Origin: Treponema sp.
GTDB lineage: Bacteria > Spirochaetota > Spirochaetia > Treponematales > Breznakiellaceae
NCBI GenBank assembly: GCA_009784935.1
Contig: WQXI01000004.1
Coordinates: 62,001-126,000 of the forward strand
Direction: 5' to 3'
DNA: 64,000 bases
Both the position numbers and the translations under genes were made by a program. The notes below the pieces were generated by a model. It ran no database searches, was not told the origin of the DNA, and saw only the letters and a list, made by a program, of their open reading frames with translations. Numbering within the stretch: position 1 is the first letter of the stretch; each line of letters starts with the position of its first letter. Of this stretch, positions 24,019 through 50,056 are shown in pieces.

Positions 24019-24129
24019 GCTAATTAAAAACTTCAGTTTTTAATTAGCTTCTCTAATTTAAGGAAAAAGCAGCTTTAGCTGGTTTTTCCAAAGGTTAATT
24101 TCAAACCTAACCGAGGTTTGAAATTAACC
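24019..24129. repeat. Three tandem palindromes between flgF-type and flgG
   Basis: Three near-perfect hairpins follow one another: 24019-24048 (gctaattaaaaact arms), 24062-24089 (ggaaaaa-cagct arms) and 24093-24129 (ggttaatttcaaacct arms). The last covers the stop codon of the upstream rod gene. They could act as transcription attenuators or mRNA stabilisers; no T tract follows on the minus strand. Confidence 0.8.
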
Positions 24130-24975
24130 AAATTTAGTTACTTGATTTATTAAAGTACCCAGCATTGCTTCTTCTGTCTGGATTACTTTTTGATTCGCTT
24201 CATAAGCGCGGTTTACTTCGATCATTTGCACCATTTCTAATACAGGGTCTACGTTAGAAGATTCTAAAAAACCCTGTAAAACTTTTGGCCGTCTTTCGTC
24301 AGTGATTTCGATTGGAGGACCCGATGTTTGACTCTGACGGTAAAGTGATAAGCCTTGTTTTTCCAGATAGCGTTCAAGTTCAAATTCTACTATTCTTAAT
24401 CTATCAAGCAGAACAGGTTCTTCCCATTCATTGGCTCGCCTTGATACCATTACTGTGGGATCATCGGGATAGATCGCATTAATCCAAACATTACCTTCTG
24501 CGTCAACTTTAAAATTATTTTCTCTTACGCTAATCGGACCGTTTTCGCCGAGTAGGGGGTATCCGTCTTTTGTTAAAAGAAAGCCTTCTTTACCAAGAAT
24601 AAACGAGCCGTTTCTTGTATAACGTTCGCCGTACGGAGTGGCAACAACAAAAAATCCATTGCCTTCCAGCATAAGATCAAAATCGCTTTGGGTTTCTTTA
24701 GGTGAGCCCTGAGTAAAAACAGTAAATGATTCATTTAATTCTACACCTGTTCCCATTCTTCCAATAATGGGGGCAGCATCGCCGGAACCAAAGGGGTGTT
24801 TATATACCCCATCGTCTTCCATTCGCCGCAGGAGCAGTTCAGGGAAAGCTTTTAAAGATACCTGATCTCTTTTATAACCGTCTGTATCTACGTTTGCCAG
24901 ATTGTTGGCTACAGCGTCAAGCCGCCATTGCTGTGCTCTCATGCCGGAAGCGCCGGTATATATTCCTCGTACCAT
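24124..24975 (-). CDS. Flagellar rod protein of the FlgF/FlgG type (FlhO-like)
   Basis: The 283-residue protein shares the rod signature of FlgG (IYTGASGMRAQQWRLDAVANN, LANVDTDGYKRDQ), the central GNGFFVVATPYGERYTRNGSF, and the C-terminal helix MIEVNRAYEANQKVIQTEEAMLGTLINQVTKF. It is slightly longer than FlgG (266 aa) and lies upstream of it. By position it is the proximal rod protein (FlgF or FlhO equivalent). Sequence alone does not separate these names. No clear Shine-Dalgarno is visible. Confidence 0.88.
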   Translation of the reverse strand: MVRGIYTGASGMRAQQWRLDAVANNLANVDTDGYKRDQVSLKAFPELLLRRMEDDGVYKHPFGSGDAAPIIGRMGTGVELNESFTVFTQGSPKETQSDFDLMLEGNGFFVVATPYGERYTRNGSFILGKEGFLLTKDGYPLLGENGPISVRENNFKVDAEGNVWINAIYPDDPTVMVSRRANEWEEPVLLDRLRIVEFELERYLEKQGLSLYRQSQTSGPPIEITDERRPKVLQGFLESSNVDPVLEMVQMIEVNRAYEANQKVIQTEEAMLGTLINQVTKFG

Positions 24976-29208: not shown

Positions 29209-31824
29209 ATGAAAAATATTTTAAACTATATTGATCTTCCTGTCTATAGAAATCAAGAAAAAATTTTATTAATGTTAAAAGAAAATCAAGCTCTCGTTGT
29301 AGAAAGTCCTACAGGTTCAGGAAAAACAACTCAACTGCCGGTAATTTTGCATGAAGCAGGCTATGCTGGAAGCTGCGCTGCGGAGTCATCAAGCGGAATC
29401 ATCGGAGTAACTCAGCCAAGACGCATTGCAGCCGTTTCTGTGAGCGAATTTATCGCGCGTCAGTGCAATACTTCTATTCCGGGAGTGATTGGATACAAGA
29501 TGAGATTCGCAGATCGCACCAATCATGAAACAAAAATTAAAATAATGACCGACGGAATACTGCTTCAGGAGATGAAATTAGATCCATGGTTGTCAAAATA
29601 CAGCGTTTTAGTCGTTGATGAAGCGCATGAACGCAGTTTAAACATTGATTTTATCCTTGGATTGCTTAAAAGAGTGCTGGAAAGCCGCAGAGATTTTAAA
29701 GTAATCATATCTTCTGCGACAATAAATGCAGAAGTTTTCTCCGAATACTTTAATAATTGCCCGATTGTTAAGATAGAAGCGCAGCGTTTTCCTGTTACGA
29801 TGGTGTATGACGCCCCTCTTATCTCTGCAAACAGCGACGCTTCTGAAGCAATCCTAACAAAAATCGAAGCAATAACTACACGATTTATCGATGAAAAGAG
29901 AGAAGGAGACATATTAATCTTTCTTTCCGGCGAAAAAATGATAAAAGAGTGCATGAATCGGCTTACATTCTGTTCTGTAGGAAAAAATTTACATCTCGTT
30001 CCGCTGTACGGCAGATTAGGAAAAGAAGAACAGGAAAAAGTCTTTGAAAAAGCTCCAAACGGCAAAACAAAAGCGGTAATTTCAACAAATATCGCAGAAA
30101 CTTCCGTTACAATTGACGGAATTACAGCAGTAATTGATTCGGGACTTGCAAAATTAAACTGGTATAATCCGCGCACATTCACTTCTAGTCTGATAGAATC
30201 GCCGATTTCCATTGCATCAGCGAATCAGCGCAAGGGAAGAGCCGGAAGAACGCGCGAAGGAACTTGCTACAGACTGTATTCGCGCAAAGATTTTGAACAA
30301 AGATCGCTTTATACAACCGAAGAAATCTTTAGAACAGACTTATCCGAAGTAATTTTGCGCATGGCAGACCTTGGAATAACCAACTTTGAAGATTTTGATT
30401 TCATTGCAGCGCCGGAAAGAGAAGGACTTCTCGGCGGAATCGAAACATTAAAACTGCTTAATGCGCTGGAAAACGATCGAAGTTTATCAAATATAGGCAA
30501 ATTAATGACAGAATTTCCTCTTGCGCCTCGTCAATCGCGCATTATTGTCGAAGCAATAATGCAATATCCAGATGTAATCCGCGAAACAATCATTGCCGCG
30601 GCATTTTTATCGACGCAGAGCCCTTATATACTGCCTCCGGGAGAAGAAACAGACGCAAGACAAGCTCATCATCGTTTCCGCGATGACTTTGGCGACTTTG
30701 TTTCGTATTTAAAACTATTTAAATCCTATAATGATTCGACAAATAAAGTAAATTTCTGCGAAAAAAATTATCTCGATGAGCGCGCGATGTCAGAAATTGT
30801 AAATGTTACCGCTCAATTAGAAGAAATTCTTGCTTCTATGAAAATTCCTGTGCATTACCGCTCTCAACCGTTAACAATCGAAGAAATTGACGATTATTTA
30901 TGCTGTATCGGGCGCGGAAATATTCAATTTGTCTGCACAAGAGAAGGACGCGGTAAAATGGGTTCATATCGAAGCTTAACAGCAGATAAAATCATAATTC
31001 ATCCCGGATCTGTAATGTTCCGTGTCGATCCGCAGTATATTGTCGCCGGAGAAATTGTTAGAACATCAAGAATGTACGCAATGTCGGTTTCTCCGCTTTC
31101 AAAAAATGTTTTAAACCGGCTTGGATTGGGAAGTCATCAAGAATTTATCACACAGAGGCACAGAGGCACAGAGGACACAGAGGAAAGAAAAGAGAAAAGA
31201 GATGGAAGAAACAAGAGAGAAAGCAAGAGAGAGAGAGATTTTACTAATAATATTAAGATTTGCGGCGAAGTGTTCGAGATTACTACTGTCAAAGGAAAGA
31301 AAACTGTTCTATTACCGTGGGAAAATCTTGAACGTATCCGGGAAAAAATTTCCGGTGATATTATGTACAAAGGCATAAAAGGAAAAATTACTTTAAAAAA
31401 ACGCGGATCAAATGCCGAATTTAACCTTCTTGCAGGAGAAAAATTGAATCTTATTCTTTCTTTAACGCCGACTCTCGACGCGCAAGGCGCTTTTTCCCGC
31501 GCGTGGCCACGTAAAGAAAATTTTAACTCAGAGGATAATTTTGGCGCGCTGCTAAAACATCTGGACAGCCTTGTAAAACCAGTAATATGGAAGAAAAACT
31601 CAAAAGATTTAGGATTTCTCGGACTTTTTACTGATGGAGAGGGAAATTACTGGTTTAGAGCTTCGCGGGGCTTTCATACAGCATTAAACGAAAGCCTTTC
31701 GAGCCTTGAGTCACTAATAGATGAATTTCAGCCAAAAACAGGAAATGAAAATACAAAAAATGAGGAAAAACACATTATAAACCAGTGCTACCGCAGATTG
31801 TCTGATTGTCTCGAAAAACTGTAA
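29209..31824 (+). CDS. hrpA: HrpA-type DEAH-box ATP-dependent RNA helicase with in-frame repeat insert
   Basis: The 871-residue protein has all DEAH helicase motifs: Walker A SPTGSGKTTQLP (near 35), QPRRIAAVS, DEAHERSLN (about 140), SSATI (about 168), ISTNIAETSVTI (about 295) and QRKGRAGRTREGTCYRLY (about 341). HA2 and OB-fold regions typical of HrpA/HrpB follow. Full HrpA is about 1300 residues and HrpB about 820; the length fits the shorter form, so the symbol is approximate. At about residues 644-685 a low-complexity segment (ITQRHRGTEDTEERKEKR) is encoded by a dispersed CACAGAGG repeat that does not break the frame. The enzyme likely acts on RNA or ribosome quality control. Confidence 0.9.
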   Translation: MKNILNYIDLPVYRNQEKILLMLKENQALVVESPTGSGKTTQLPVILHEAGYAGSCAAESSSGIIGVTQPRRIAAVSVSEFIARQCNTSIPGVIGYKMRFADRTNHETKIKIMTDGILLQEMKLDPWLSKYSVLVVDEAHERSLNIDFILGLLKRVLESRRDFKVIISSATINAEVFSEYFNNCPIVKIEAQRFPVTMVYDAPLISANSDASEAILTKIEAITTRFIDEKREGDILIFLSGEKMIKECMNRLTFCSVGKNLHLVPLYGRLGKEEQEKVFEKAPNGKTKAVISTNIAETSVTIDGITAVIDSGLAKLNWYNPRTFTSSLIESPISIASANQRKGRAGRTREGTCYRLYSRKDFEQRSLYTTEEIFRTDLSEVILRMADLGITNFEDFDFIAAPEREGLLGGIETLKLLNALENDRSLSNIGKLMTEFPLAPRQSRIIVEAIMQYPDVIRETIIAAAFLSTQSPYILPPGEETDARQAHHRFRDDFGDFVSYLKLFKSYNDSTNKVNFCEKNYLDERAMSEIVNVTAQLEEILASMKIPVHYRSQPLTIEEIDDYLCCIGRGNIQFVCTREGRGKMGSYRSLTADKIIIHPGSVMFRVDPQYIVAGEIVRTSRMYAMSVSPLSKNVLNRLGLGSHQEFITQRHRGTEDTEERKEKRDGRNKRESKRERDFTNNIKICGEVFEITTVKGKKTVLLPWENLERIREKISGDIMYKGIKGKITLKKRGSNAEFNLLAGEKLNLILSLTPTLDAQGAFSRAWPRKENFNSEDNFGALLKHLDSLVKPVIWKKNSKDLGFLGLFTDGEGNYWFRASRGFHTALNESLSSLESLIDEFQPKTGNENTKNEEKHIINQCYRRLSDCLEKL
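31147..31195 (+). repeat. CACAGAGG repeat inside hrpA
   Basis: Tandem units cacacagaggcacagagg, then cacagaggacacagagg, with a purine-rich extension to about 31240, all in frame with the helicase. This is one arm only; no opposing arm follows. Confidence 0.85.
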
Positions 31825-45678: not shown

Positions 45679-46698
45679 ATGATTAAAGAAGCGATTATAC
45701 AGGCTGCTAAAAGAGAAAATCTCTCCTTTGAATGCGCCGAAGCTGTAATGAACGAAATTATGGAAGGCAAAGCAAGCGAAATCCAGATGGCAGCATACCT
45801 TGCCGCTATGTCAGTTAAAGGCGAAACAATCGACGAAATAACAGCGTCTGCTACCGGTATGCGCAAACATTGCACAAGAATACTGCACGACATTGACGCG
45901 CTGGAAATTGTCGGCACAGGCGGCGATCATTCAAATTCATTCAATATTTCTACTACTTCTGCGCTGGTAATATCCGCAGTTGGGATTCCGGTTGCTAAAC
46001 ACGGCAACAGGGCTTCATCATCAAGAACTGGTTCTGCTGATGTGCTCGAAGCGCTCGGTGTTGACATAACAATCAAGCCGGAGCACAGCCTTTATCTTTT
46101 AAAAAATATCAATATTTGTTTTCTCTTTGCGCAGAATTATCACATATCAATGAAGTATGTAGCTCCTGTCCGCCGAGAGCTTGGCATTCGTACAATTTTT
46201 AATATACTTGGTCCTCTGGTAAATCCGGCGGGCGCAAACATGGAACTTTTGGGCGTGTATGAACCCGAACTTATCGAACCTATGGCAAAAGTTCTTTGCA
46301 ACCTCGGCGTTAAAAGAGGCATGGTTGTTTACGGACACGACGGACTCGACGAGATTTCGCTTGGCGCGCCTACAACTGTCTGCGAACTTAGAGACGGGTT
46401 CATAAAAACCTATGATATCGAACCTGAGCAATTTGGATTTGACCGCTGTAAAAAAGAAGACCTTTTGGGCGGCACTCCTTTGGAAAACGCTGAGATAACA
46501 AAAAAAATTCTAAACGGCGAAAAAGGTCCGAGACGCAATGCGGTTTTGCTTAATTCCGCCGCAGCGATTCATATTGCCAAACCGGATATAAGCATAAAAG
46601 ACGCAGTTGCTGTTGCAGCCGAAGCGATCGATTCTGGAAAAGCAAATGAACAGTTAGAACGGTTTGCCGAATTATCGCAAAAGAAAGACTTGGTATGA
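45679..46698 (+). CDS. trpD: Anthranilate phosphoribosyltransferase TrpD
   Basis: The 339-residue enzyme transfers phosphoribosyl to anthranilate in tryptophan synthesis. The motifs GTGGDHSNSFNISTTSALV (about 78), KHGNRASSSRTGSADVLEALG (about 107) and GPLVNPAGANMELLGVYEPEL are intact. It is a stand-alone TrpD, not fused to TrpG. It overlaps trpC by 4 bases (ATGA). The start is preceded by a -10-like box and no Shine-Dalgarno. Confidence 0.95.
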   Translation: MIKEAIIQAAKRENLSFECAEAVMNEIMEGKASEIQMAAYLAAMSVKGETIDEITASATGMRKHCTRILHDIDALEIVGTGGDHSNSFNISTTSALVISAVGIPVAKHGNRASSSRTGSADVLEALGVDITIKPEHSLYLLKNINICFLFAQNYHISMKYVAPVRRELGIRTIFNILGPLVNPAGANMELLGVYEPELIEPMAKVLCNLGVKRGMVVYGHDGLDEISLGAPTTVCELRDGFIKTYDIEPEQFGFDRCKKEDLLGGTPLENAEITKKILNGEKGPRRNAVLLNSAAAIHIAKPDISIKDAVAVAAEAIDSGKANEQLERFAELSQKKDLV

Positions 46699-47558
46699 GA
46701 ACACCGCCTGCAATACTTGGTAAAATCGCAGAGAGCACACTGGCTCGCGTTGCCAAGGCGAAAGAGATACTTCCGCTCGAAAAACTACTTAAGAATTTAA
46801 AACCACAGAGGTCACAGAGTTTCACGGAGGAAGAAAAGACTTTTGAAGCAAAAACTCCGTGTTCCTCTGTGTACTCTGTGGTAAAAAATATTCTTCCTTT
46901 CGAGAGTGCGCTGGCTGCTCCCGGATTATCATTTATCTGCGAAGTAAAAAAAGCATCTCCTTCCAAAGGCATAATAGCAGAACATTTTCCTTGGCTGGAA
47001 ATCGCAAAAGAGTACGAAGAAGGCGGCGCTGCTGCAATTTCTGTTTTAACAGAACCAGAGTTTTTTTTAGGAAGCGATCAATACCTGCGCGAAATTTCTG
47101 CCGCAGTAGCGATCCCTGCGCTGAGAAAAGATTTTATAATTGATCCGTATCAGATCTACGAAGCAAAACTGTTGGGCGCAAGCGCAGTACTTTTAATCTG
47201 CGCTCTGTTAGAGCCGCAGACGCTTTCTGAATACATGAAACTCGCAAAAGAACTTTCGCTTGACTGCCTTGTAGAGATTCACAGCGAAGAAGAAGCAAAA
47301 GAAGCGGTCGGCGAAGGAGCAAAAATTATCGGCATTAACAACCGCGACCTTACTACATTTAAAGTTGACACAGAACTGACTTCCCGCCTTGTAAAAAAAA
47401 TCCCGGCAGAGATTCTAATCGTCGCAGAAAGCGGAATAAATAATGCAGATGACATCCGCGCTCTTAAAGAAATCGGCGCTGACGCTGTGTTAATAGGCGA
47501 AAGTTTAATGCGAGCAGCCAACAGGAAACAATTACTATCCGATTGGAAGCTTGCCTAA
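46695..47558 (+). CDS. trpC: Indole-3-glycerol-phosphate synthase TrpC with in-frame repeat insert
   Basis: The 287-residue protein is a beta/alpha-barrel with FICEVKKASPSKG, AISVLTEPEFFLGS, LRKDFIIDPYQIYEA, IGINNRDLTTF, VAESGI and DAVLIGESLM. It converts CdRP to indole-3-glycerol phosphate. Typical TrpC is about 260 residues. The extra length is a stretch of about 27 residues (36-63, KPQRSQSFTEEEKTFEAK then TPCSSVYSVV) encoded by a palindromic CACAGAGG element between the N-terminal helices and the first strand. The gene overlaps trpD by 4 bases and lacks an adjacent trpF. Confidence 0.95.
   Translation: MRTPPAILGKIAESTLARVAKAKEILPLEKLLKNLKPQRSQSFTEEEKTFEAKTPCSSVYSVVKNILPFESALAAPGLSFICEVKKASPSKGIIAEHFPWLEIAKEYEEGGAAAISVLTEPEFFLGSDQYLREISAAVAIPALRKDFIIDPYQIYEAKLLGASAVLLICALLEPQTLSEYMKLAKELSLDCLVEIHSEEEAKEAVGEGAKIIGINNRDLTTFKVDTELTSRLVKKIPAEILIVAESGINNADDIRALKEIGADAVLIGESLMRAANRKQLLSDWKLA
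46801..46882 (+). repeat. Palindromic CACAGAGG element inside trpC
   Basis: Left arm aaccacagaggtcacagag (46801-46830 with extension) and right arm ctccgtgttcctctgtgtac, ending at 46882, form an imperfect inverted repeat. It is 82 bases long and in frame. Confidence 0.9.
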
Positions 47559-47562
47559 CTCT

Positions 47563-49194
47563 TTATGAGAATCTCTGCGAAGAAACAATTTCTCTTGCTT
47601 TTTCAAGGAAGTCCATTGCGCTTTCTTCGGCAGTTTTCATTTCTTTTACTTCTTCTGTCAATTCTGCGGTAAGCCCTTCCAGCGTATTCATTTCTTTATA
47701 AATAAATTCGCCTCTTTGGTGAATCATTCCTGTTCCTTCCTGAACTTCTTTACTGGTCTTTTGCACTACTTCCAAAATATCCAGAACTTGAGTTCCGTCG
47801 GCAGCGTGAGCTTCGACAGCTTTGCTTACTTCACCAAACGAAGCGCCCATTTCTTTGATTCCGGAGAATATTTCGTCCATCGAATTTACAGTAGTCTGCG
47901 AAGCGCTGCTTATTTGAGCAATAACTTGTTCCATTTTTTGTATTTCTGCAGAAATAGCATCAGATTCTTTTGTAGAAAGCTCTGCAAGTTTTCTGACTTC
48001 TCCCGCTACAACAGCAAATCCTTTTCCAAGTTCGCCTGCATGAGCCGCTTCGATAGCCGCGTTCATAGCAAGAATATTTGTCTGACCAGCAATTCCTGCA
48101 ATCGTTTTATTTGCGTTCTGGAGAGCAACAGACTGCTCTTCGATCTGTTTAATATCTTCTGTCAGTCTTAACAGCATTCTATGTCCGGCTTCGGAAGAAT
48201 GCATAAGCGTATCAGCGGTTTTTCTTGTTTTTTGCGCAATCGAATGAACCGAATCAACATTAGAAACCATCAGCTCAATCGCTTTTGATGATTGCACAAT
48301 CGATTCTGCCTGCGTATGTACTTTTTTCTGGAACGAATCAACATGCATGTAAATTTCATGCGCCGAGCTTGACGCGCCGCGCATAGATTTCATTTGAGAC
48401 TGAACTTTTGCTTCCATCGCATTAATATGTATTCTGATTTTATCAATCTCATCAAAAGACTCAACAACAACTTCGTTAAGGCGTTTGTTTTTATCCAAAG
48501 TAACAGAAAGATGTTTTTGGTTTGTTTCTTCAACTTCGTTTCTGAGCGCTGTTTCGGATTCTATCATCGAATAAAAAAGCGTTAAACGGCGCTTAGCTGC
48601 AACGCCGGTAATTGTACTTGTAATAATTATACCAACCAGCCTAAAAGCTTCATAGAACAACGGGAAGCGAACAGGCACTTCTTCGCCTTCAAACATAAAT
48701 GTGTGAGGCAGATCAAGCACATCCCTGTTCATAATAATTACTATTAGATATGTGATAAACGCATAATAACCAGATAGATAAGCGCACCGCGGACTGTATC
48801 TGCATGCTCCCCCAACAATTAAAATCGAGTAGAACAACGCTCTAAATGAAAGAAAAGGAAGCGGCGGAGAAAGTACCGGGTAAGTACACCCAACCCAGAT
48901 GATGGCGCTTATAAGCGACATGTCCAAAAATGAACATATATATTTAAATGCGCCGGAGAGCCTTCCTGTCCTTCGCACATAAATAAAGAGATATATTGAA
49001 TAAAACAGCAAAACGCTGGTAACTATATGAGCGCGCCAAGGTATCCATTCATCACCGCCCAAGTACCTGATTACAGCAACACCCGACGTACTGACCGTAA
49101 AAATAATACCCATCAGCAGCCTGACATTGCTGATTACCTTTTCACCGCCATGTTCATCTATCCGAATTCTCTCTTTTATTTCGTTAATTGTCAT
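47563..49194 (-). CDS. Methyl-accepting chemotaxis protein with multi-span membrane sensor
   Basis: The 543-residue protein has about five or six membrane spans in the first 215 residues (for example [28 protein letters not shown] and [14 protein letters not shown]). A coiled cytoplasmic signalling domain follows with the conserved hairpin tip ([39 protein letters not shown]). It lacks a periplasmic ligand domain, so the sensor is likely within the membrane (for example light, redox or membrane state); this is inferred. The ATG at 49194 is 6 bases after GGAG. It runs opposite to and between trpC and trpF. Confidence 0.92.
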
Positions 49195-49333
49195 AATATT
49201 CTCCAAAAATCCCTAAAAATAGCTGATTCACCTATTATGTTAAATTATCGACAATTATTAAAGCCGAAATTATACTATTCTGCGATATTTTTGATACCTT
49301 TTATGAATACAGAAATTATGGTAAATTATACAA

Positions 49334-50056
49334 ATGAGAGTAAAAATATGCGGTTTATTTCGTGACGAAGACATAGATTTTGTGAACGAAGCCCGGCCGG
49401 ACTATGCGGGTTTTGTGTTTGCCAAAAGCCCAAGGCAGGTTTCCACAGCCCTCGCCCAATATCTGCGTTTTCGTATCGCTGACGGCATTGCTCCCGTGGG
49501 TGTATTTGTAAATGCTCCCATCGCAATGGTGACAGAGCTGTACCAAAACGGCATTATTTCTATTGCCCAGCTCCATGGCACCGAAGACGAAAGCTATATC
49601 ACCCAGCTAAAACGGCTGAGTGTGAGCGCAATCAGACAGACCAGAATCCCCGAGATAAAAGTGATAAAAACAATAAATTCGGAATTATTTGAAAAGAATA
49701 TGAAACCACAGAGGACACGGAGGAACACAGAGTTATTAAAACAAAAATCATCCTCTCTCCGTGAAACTCCAAGCAACTTTAGTTGCGGTACTCCGTGGTT
49801 AAATAATATTCCAAATAATGCGGATTATATTCTTCTAGATTCCGGTTCCGGCTCCGGCAAAACTTTTAATTGGGATATGCTTAAATCAATCAAATTCTCC
49901 AAACCCTGGTTTCTCGCAGGCGGAATAAATATCAAAAACATTAATCAAACAAAAGAACTTAACCCGTTCGCCATTGACGTCTCAAGCGGCGTAGAAACAG
50001 ACGGTGTTAAAGATCGCAAAAAAATACTGGACATTGTCGCAGCAGCAAGAGGATAA
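49334..50056 (+). CDS. trpF: Phosphoribosylanthranilate isomerase TrpF with in-frame repeat insert
   Basis: The 240-residue barrel enzyme has MRVKICGLFRDEDIDFVNEA at the start, the core AQLHGTEDESYITQL, and LLDSGSGSGKTFNWDML at the phosphate site. AGGINIKNI and AIDVSSGVETDGVKD follow near the end. It isomerises phosphoribosylanthranilate. Usual length is about 200-210; a 34-residue insertion (123-156, MKPQRTRRNTELLKQK to CGTPWLNN) comes from a palindromic CACAGAGG element placed between two barrel strands. TAAATT lies 6 bases before the ATG. It converges with the chemosensory genes. Confidence 0.94.
   Translation: MRVKICGLFRDEDIDFVNEARPDYAGFVFAKSPRQVSTALAQYLRFRIADGIAPVGVFVNAPIAMVTELYQNGIISIAQLHGTEDESYITQLKRLSVSAIRQTRIPEIKVIKTINSELFEKNMKPQRTRRNTELLKQKSSSLRETPSNFSCGTPWLNNIPNNADYILLDSGSGSGKTFNWDMLKSIKFSKPWFLAGGINIKNINQTKELNPFAIDVSSGVETDGVKDRKKILDIVAAARG
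49702..49802 (+). repeat. Palindromic CACAGAGG element inside trpF, with nested hairpin
   Basis: Left arm aaccacagaggacacggagg and right arm ending ggtactccgtggttaaa are inverted. The right arm itself is split by a second palindrome, AAGCAACTTTAGTTGCGG (49771-49788). The whole element is in frame. Confidence 0.88.

Follow-up and report, generated by a model that had tools for sequence, protein, structure and literature searches.

Rickettsia has long been known for short palindromic elements that sit within conserved genes and keep their reading frame; the available passages of the source on these Rickettsia palindromic elements (RPEs) name no enzyme that spreads them (PMC10969869). A palindromic repeat is paired with a protein in the case of the RAYT genes: two inverted repeat copies flank the gene, gene and repeat evolve in step, and the number of repeat copies follows the cognate gene (PMC2817692). 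A further kind of palindromic DNA with coding potential, the PARCELs, has spread among bacteria (PMC2996958). The trpF gene of a Treponema species carries an in-frame palindrome that can be set beside all three. The analysis presented here indicates that a small hairpin nested in this palindrome is an old inherited module, shows the palindrome to belong to a repeat that looks mobile and is present in many copies, and points to a small protein of the GxxExxY family as its likely partner in mobility.

The palindrome lies in a window (the whole stretch of DNA that was analysed, 64,000 nucleotides) belonging to a genome of 2.37 Mb that is labelled G000; the coordinates of its features and of related ones in the trp region are collected in Table 1. 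The trpF records nearest to this gene come from Treponema MAGs, probably of termite-gut origin. The first-pass annotation had placed a palindrome in trpF and a second inverted repeat within its right arm, and the sequence bears out both the coordinates and the description. It had also called the nested piece a perfect inverted repeat: that is correct for the inner 14 bases, which have 6-bp arms and a TT loop, but the outer AAG/CGG is unpaired. The right arm of the trpF element reads ACTCC-AAGCAACTTTAGTTGCGGT-ACTCCGTGGT, and the same arm of a hairpin-free copy (L045) reads ACTCC-GTGT-ACTCCGTGGT. Folded as single-stranded DNA, the trpF region reaches -13.8 kcal/mol, against a mean of -7.8 for shuffled sequences (z -2.7, with 3 of 200 shuffles as good). 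No Rfam family was found for the region at gathering threshold. An AlphaFold model of this TrpF (pLDDT 79.9) keeps the barrel; residues 122-153 are mostly below pLDDT 50, and the insert is placed in a disordered loop.

Table 1. Palindromic elements and their host genes in the trp region, in window coordinates
Feature	Position	Strand	Remarks
Family C palindrome TTCACACGGAGGCACAAAGG...CCTTTGTGTGAA	45502..45621	.	before trpD; tips are those of the second GxxExxY gene (L084)
trpC (indole-3-glycerol phosphate synthase)	46695..47558	+	likewise hosts a family A element in frame
Second family A element of the window	46802..46882	.	81 bp, without inner hairpin, in a variable linker of TrpC
trpF (phosphoribosylanthranilate isomerase)	49334..50056	+	240 aa with in-frame palindromic element; TrpF of relatives ~206 aa
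Family A palindromic element in trpF	49705..49799	.	95 bp tip to tip; imperfect palindrome
Left inverted tip of trpF element, ACCACAGAGGACACGGAG	49705..49722	+	two words, ACCACAGAG GACACGGAG
Inner hairpin of trpF element, GCAACTTTAGTTGC	49773..49786	.	variable module at a fixed place in the element
Right inverted tip of trpF element, CTCCGTGGT	49791..49799	-	minus-strand reading ACCACGGAG

The tips of the trpF element recur far beyond chance: the window contains five matches at three or fewer mismatches, where 0.01 would be expected, and the genome contains 133 at two or fewer mismatches, against one for a reversed control pattern. A census of the stretches around the first 100 of the 133 listed tip matches yielded 50 copies with both tips. 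These counts uphold the earlier proposal that the larger element is repeated and mobile-looking. Plain copies in this sample are mostly 80-84 bp long and the commonest copies with a hairpin are 95 bp, a difference of 15 bp that keeps the reading frame. The tips read ACCAC/GTGGT and stand in A+T-rich flanks, with an AAGAATT-like sequence within 25 bp of the tips in 64% of cases versus a background of 7.5%. The outer right flank in trpF and in folA (AATATTCC, ATTCTTTC) is also found in relatives that are free of the element; at these two sites, then, at least part of the AAGAATT signal reflects a preference for the target and is not a component of the element. A search for target-site duplications at trpF, trpC and folA found none that could be read against the nearest relatives, which are too diverged there. 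Between species of one genus the copy number of family A varies from 0 to more than 100. Related arrangements occur as well: one locus of this genome (G000:C28:8955-9098, L200) has four family A tips in the same orientation at a spacing of 42 bases, a tandem array of half elements, and in two other genomes (G019 and G026) a family with the word TCACACAAAGG is very abundant, at 480 and 190 tip matches. In the window itself, a one-sided run of CACAGAGGCACAGAGG words at 31150-31184, within a long frame (~29209-31824), may be one half of a family C palindrome. Gene order at the trp locus also differs between species: here a gene of methyl-accepting chemotaxis type (47563-49206, minus strand) separates trpC from trpF, and in the relative at L053 trpF directly follows trpC and the family C palindrome before trpD is missing.

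Eleven of the 50 sampled copies lie in long open frames, ten of the 50 in proteins with recognised domains. The hosts are TrpF, TrpC, dihydrofolate reductase (DHFR, encoded by folA), MutL, a pyridine-nucleotide oxidoreductase, a Gfo/Idh oxidoreductase, apolipoprotein N-acyltransferase (lnt), an ATP-grasp ligase, an ABC exporter and HydF; in MutL, Lnt, the ABC exporter and HydF the insert falls between domains. The trpF and trpC genes of relatives have no family A element. Among genomes of the genus in which folA was matched, the alignment of DHFR is gapped or broken at the insert and the family A element is missing. In one of them (G012, L185), a half element of another family (D, CTCCGCGTCCTCTGCGTCTCTGCG) occupies the DHFR loop in which this genome has family A. 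With two families in the same loop of two species, loops of enzymes can evidently serve as landing sites more than once.

What connects these palindromes with a protein is a unit of 460 bp (G000:C2:22937-23396), in which one copy of the element (L017) immediately precedes a GxxExxY gene, on whose other side stands a second inverted tip. The ends of this family A unit (L068) are the same as those of family A elements. The genome has two GxxExxY genes (L068 and L084, at 144.6 and 134.4 bits against a curated TIGR04256 cut-off of 35), and it has a high-copy palindrome family with the tips of each: family A for the one and family C, which includes the palindrome before trpD, for the other. A third family, B, has 31 matches in this genome and no matching GxxExxY gene here. 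A chimera occurs at L001, where a family C end is joined to a family A end. The surroundings of the two gene-bearing units (L068 1380-2191 and L084 310-1203) are alike: each follows a short gene start of ATGAAAAC type and precedes a similar C-terminal coding piece (EGSTLEFTQKITGLDLETI, EGSTHEFIQKITGLDLETI), which looks as though the two units had inserted into genes of a single family. A Pfam search of two adjoining ORF pieces found no family; these pieces may resemble Rpn proteins.

GxxExxY genes of relatives are framed by inverted repeats too. In a sample of PF13366 genes drawn from 60 relatives, each of the 22 complete domains tested has a matching inverted repeat in its flanks, and the framing words differ from gene to gene (ACCACAGAG, CACGAAC, CACGGATTA, CAGGAT, CGCAGAG and TCACACAAAGG). 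A framing score of at least 17 is reached by 21 of the 22 and by only 2 of 213 control ORFs. Across the phylum, 20 of 29 further GxxExxY loci are framed at p 0.01 or better. Framing is also clear for plasmid genes in Gemmatirosa, Bernardetia, Bacteroides and Sphingomonas, the Sphingomonas unit lying between fabD and fabG. Four other plasmid loci (L145-L148) have no clear framing by score; at a further locus, L144, the score failed with the annotated gene end, and the inverted repeat is visible within the annotated 3' end. GxxExxY was absent from the phage collection and the viral contigs searched.

The protein (PF13366/TIGR04256, PDDEXK_3) comes from a family whose TIGR04256 model gives no function name. 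Residues E27, D67, E77 and K79 (numbered as in L068) are invariant in all 22 sequences and form an E, D, ExK pattern. The predicted structure (pLDDT 94) is nearest to the Holliday junction resolvase Hjc of Archaeoglobus (Foldseek E 2e-3), and other near folds are SSO0001, of Cas4 type (VIA Z 9.9), and lambda exonuclease; a direct sequence search of the PDB returned nothing. Pattern and modeled fold together support, through a modest match, a PD-(D/E)XK nuclease fold, with nuclease activity that is putative. In open-licence literature the family is named in passing, and those passages, as available, do not speak of framing repeats; nor was an account found there that links a repeat sequence or palindromes with GxxExxY.

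The repeat word goes with the protein. When loci are assigned to word families by eye from their framing repeats, the word needs 7 changes along the protein tree, as few as 8 labels allow; shuffled labels need 14.9 changes on average, and none of 200 shuffles is as low. Where a genome has two GxxExxY genes it also has two words; the word thus tracks the protein rather than its host. Copies of a word family are likewise more numerous in genomes that have a GxxExxY gene with the matching word (joint permutation p 5e-5; p 0.023 in a stricter test in which families are permuted among bearers), these p-values being optimistic since the compared genomes are related and shared ancestry is ignored. 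Three genomes are rich in family A and have no GxxExxY match: G008 with 125 tip matches, G032 with 104 (a genome that is 100% complete) and G017 with 64. The gene is therefore unnecessary for keeping copies, and may not have spread the copies that are found there.

These observations can be accommodated in a single scheme, which we hold with middling confidence: the trpF palindrome would be a short, non-autonomous mobile element, and GxxExxY its likely partner in mobility. The element, some 80-130 bp built of inverted runs of ~9-bp words (ACCACAGAG GACACGGAG), would insert into A+T-rich intergenic spots, and into the loops or linkers of genes when the frame allows. GxxExxY would recognise its own word repeat, or the cruciform formed from it, and would cut there or at a matching target; repair would then copy the element to the new site. 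The inner hairpin would take the place of a segment of one word close to the right tip and be copied along with the element, diversifying by change of the whole hairpin with stem pairing kept. That GxxExxY may mobilise the palindromes is suggested by the framing of its gene and by the agreement of word with clade and of copy number with the presence of the gene; recognition, cutting and copying by repair are conjectural steps. A broader proposition, to which we give somewhat less credence than to the scheme for trpF, is that GxxExxY proteins constitute widespread nuclease-driven mobile systems, each recognising its own periodic-word palindrome and spreading it as a short non-autonomous element, in frame into housekeeping genes too, with the same palindrome framing its own gene.

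The nested hairpin lends itself to a different history, and it is the one that the first-pass annotation had suggested: a small, independently mobile palindrome landing within a larger mobile one. The copies that would speak for such an event do exist. Element copies with and without the inner piece are both found (22 and 28, respectively, of the 50 sampled, by the criterion of the script used), other genomic copies of the nested palindrome are found also (CAACTTTAGTTG, 15 copies in the 2.37 Mb genome, none for the reversed control), and two copies of the element (L003 and L042) have two hairpins in tandem. Twelve of the 15 copies of CAACTTTAGTTG, however, lie within elements of this kind, at a fixed place beside one tip, where the usual form is ACCACGGAGTAC[TGCAACTAAAGTTGCTT]GGAG; of the remaining three, two stand in tandem in a TPP riboswitch and the third falls in unrelated sequence. 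The small hairpin thus has almost no independent distribution in the genome. What occupies the fixed place also varies: the hairpins there include GCAACTTTAGTTGC, GCAGCTTTAGCTGC, GGAGCTAAAGCTCC, GCTATC..GATAGC, GCTGTC..GACAGC and GGCAACTGTAGTTGCC, and the variants at the same spot in other copies show compensating arms. Among nine stem variants 98% of positions are paired, versus 68% with shuffled 3' arms, and none of 5000 shuffles reaches the observed value. The identical hairpin is present at the identical place in three further Treponema species, in four copies in G020, two in G016 and one in G006. The fixed place, the paired stem variants and the recurrence in three other species indicate that the hairpin is an old inherited module that has diversified by whole-hairpin change and is not a recent second insertion at trpF. 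As the main reading an independently mobile hairpin is rejected on the same three grounds, and we consider it improbable, the tandem pairs notwithstanding. The riboswitch with a pair of its own is located at L014 1399-1570 (G000:C61, minus strand): nothing from Rfam is seen in L014 at gathering threshold, and a permissive Infernal search identifies a TPP riboswitch at E 2.8e-6, under gathering score, with an insertion of ~78 bases in its variable arm that includes two inverted copies of the CAACTTTAGTTG hairpin. A likeness of the nested piece to the hairpin at 24062-24089 had also been noted earlier. It proves weak, and kinship between the two is rejected: the common part is just the 12-mer CAGCTTTAGCTG, present at 24070-24081 in a surrounding hairpin without CACAGAG words, and only one of the four genomic copies of this 12-mer lies in an element. 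That hairpin is in an intergenic stretch (24030-24130) where three unrelated palindromes, GGAAAAAGCAGCTTTAGCTGGTTTTTCC among them, follow one another; they stand outside the CACAGAG families.

The matched stems of the hairpin variants would also be explained by template switching, through which palindromes can grow and change, and this is one of the points in favor of an agent other than GxxExxY: the palindromes might be spread by an insertion-sequence transposase or by host replication and repair, with GxxExxY as cargo that was caught between palindromes or that inserts into them by preference. The several family A-rich genomes in which no GxxExxY match is found fit such an account. Against it is the fact that the word matches the clade of the protein and not the host, and that copy number follows the matching gene, an agreement that random capture of GxxExxY genes would not produce; moreover, no transposase of the RAYT/IS200-type Y1 class is found in this genome. 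We regard spread by another enzyme as unlikely, though it carries more weight than any other alternative considered here. Far less probable still, to the point of being very doubtful, is that the elements are not mobile DNA at all and serve instead as functional RNAs or transcription terminators that selection maintains in place. Numerous copies are indeed intergenic and form stable hairpins, but about one fifth of the sampled copies are inside conserved reading frames, those in trpF, trpC and folA are missing in relatives, the trpF region has no Rfam match, and copy number swings over its whole range among species of a single genus. A mobile element with GxxExxY as its candidate partner remains the preferred reading, and it would give the palindromes in conserved genes a candidate enzyme: a small nuclease-fold protein with a repeat-bounded gene, a clade-word match and a link to copy number. 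A possible role for the GxxExxY family, whose genes are framed in Spirochaetota, Gemmatimonadota, Bacteroidota and Pseudomonadota, would follow as well.

Neither RPE-like elements nor genes framed by repeats are new in themselves; no account of a pairing with GxxExxY turned up in the open-licence literature. With the Rickettsia elements the Treponema palindromes share short length, the presence of several families in a genome, and sites both intergenic and in frame in unrelated conserved genes, to which they add a few dozen residues (according to the available passages of PMC10969869). The Treponema elements differ in being made of ~9-bp words of CACAGAG type, in their interchangeable inner hairpins and in having a candidate partner, GxxExxY; for the Rickettsia elements the same passages name no partner gene (PMC10969869). 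The Treponema element is called RPE-like for its behavior, the likeness being one of description only. PARCELs are likewise palindromic DNA with coding potential, but consist of tandem 25-residue amphipathic repeats in unassigned ORFs, whereas the Treponema elements are single insertions in conserved enzymes; the two are set apart by description. MITEs, too, are small and numerous, end in inverted tips and have a larger counterpart that bears a gene between such tips; the gene-bearing unit of Treponema differs in that it encodes no known transposase.

In its logic the arrangement resembles the REPIN/RAYT system, whose inverted framing, coevolution of gene and repeat, and correlation with copy number are all found here with GxxExxY in the place of RAYT. 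The Treponema system would work alike without being a member: where RAYT is a Y1 tyrosine transposase, GxxExxY has the predicted fold of PD-(D/E)XK nucleases, and the Treponema repeats are built of periodic words and have no GTAG head. A RAYT or other Y1 transposase is rejected as the mover in this genome, since a search for PF01797 found none in it (the assembly is 94.6% complete) and did find a match in 5 of 14 control genomes. If GxxExxY does mobilise these palindromes, it would represent an independently evolved counterpart of RAYT-REP, and would offer a candidate explanation for palindromic elements that have no known spreading agent.
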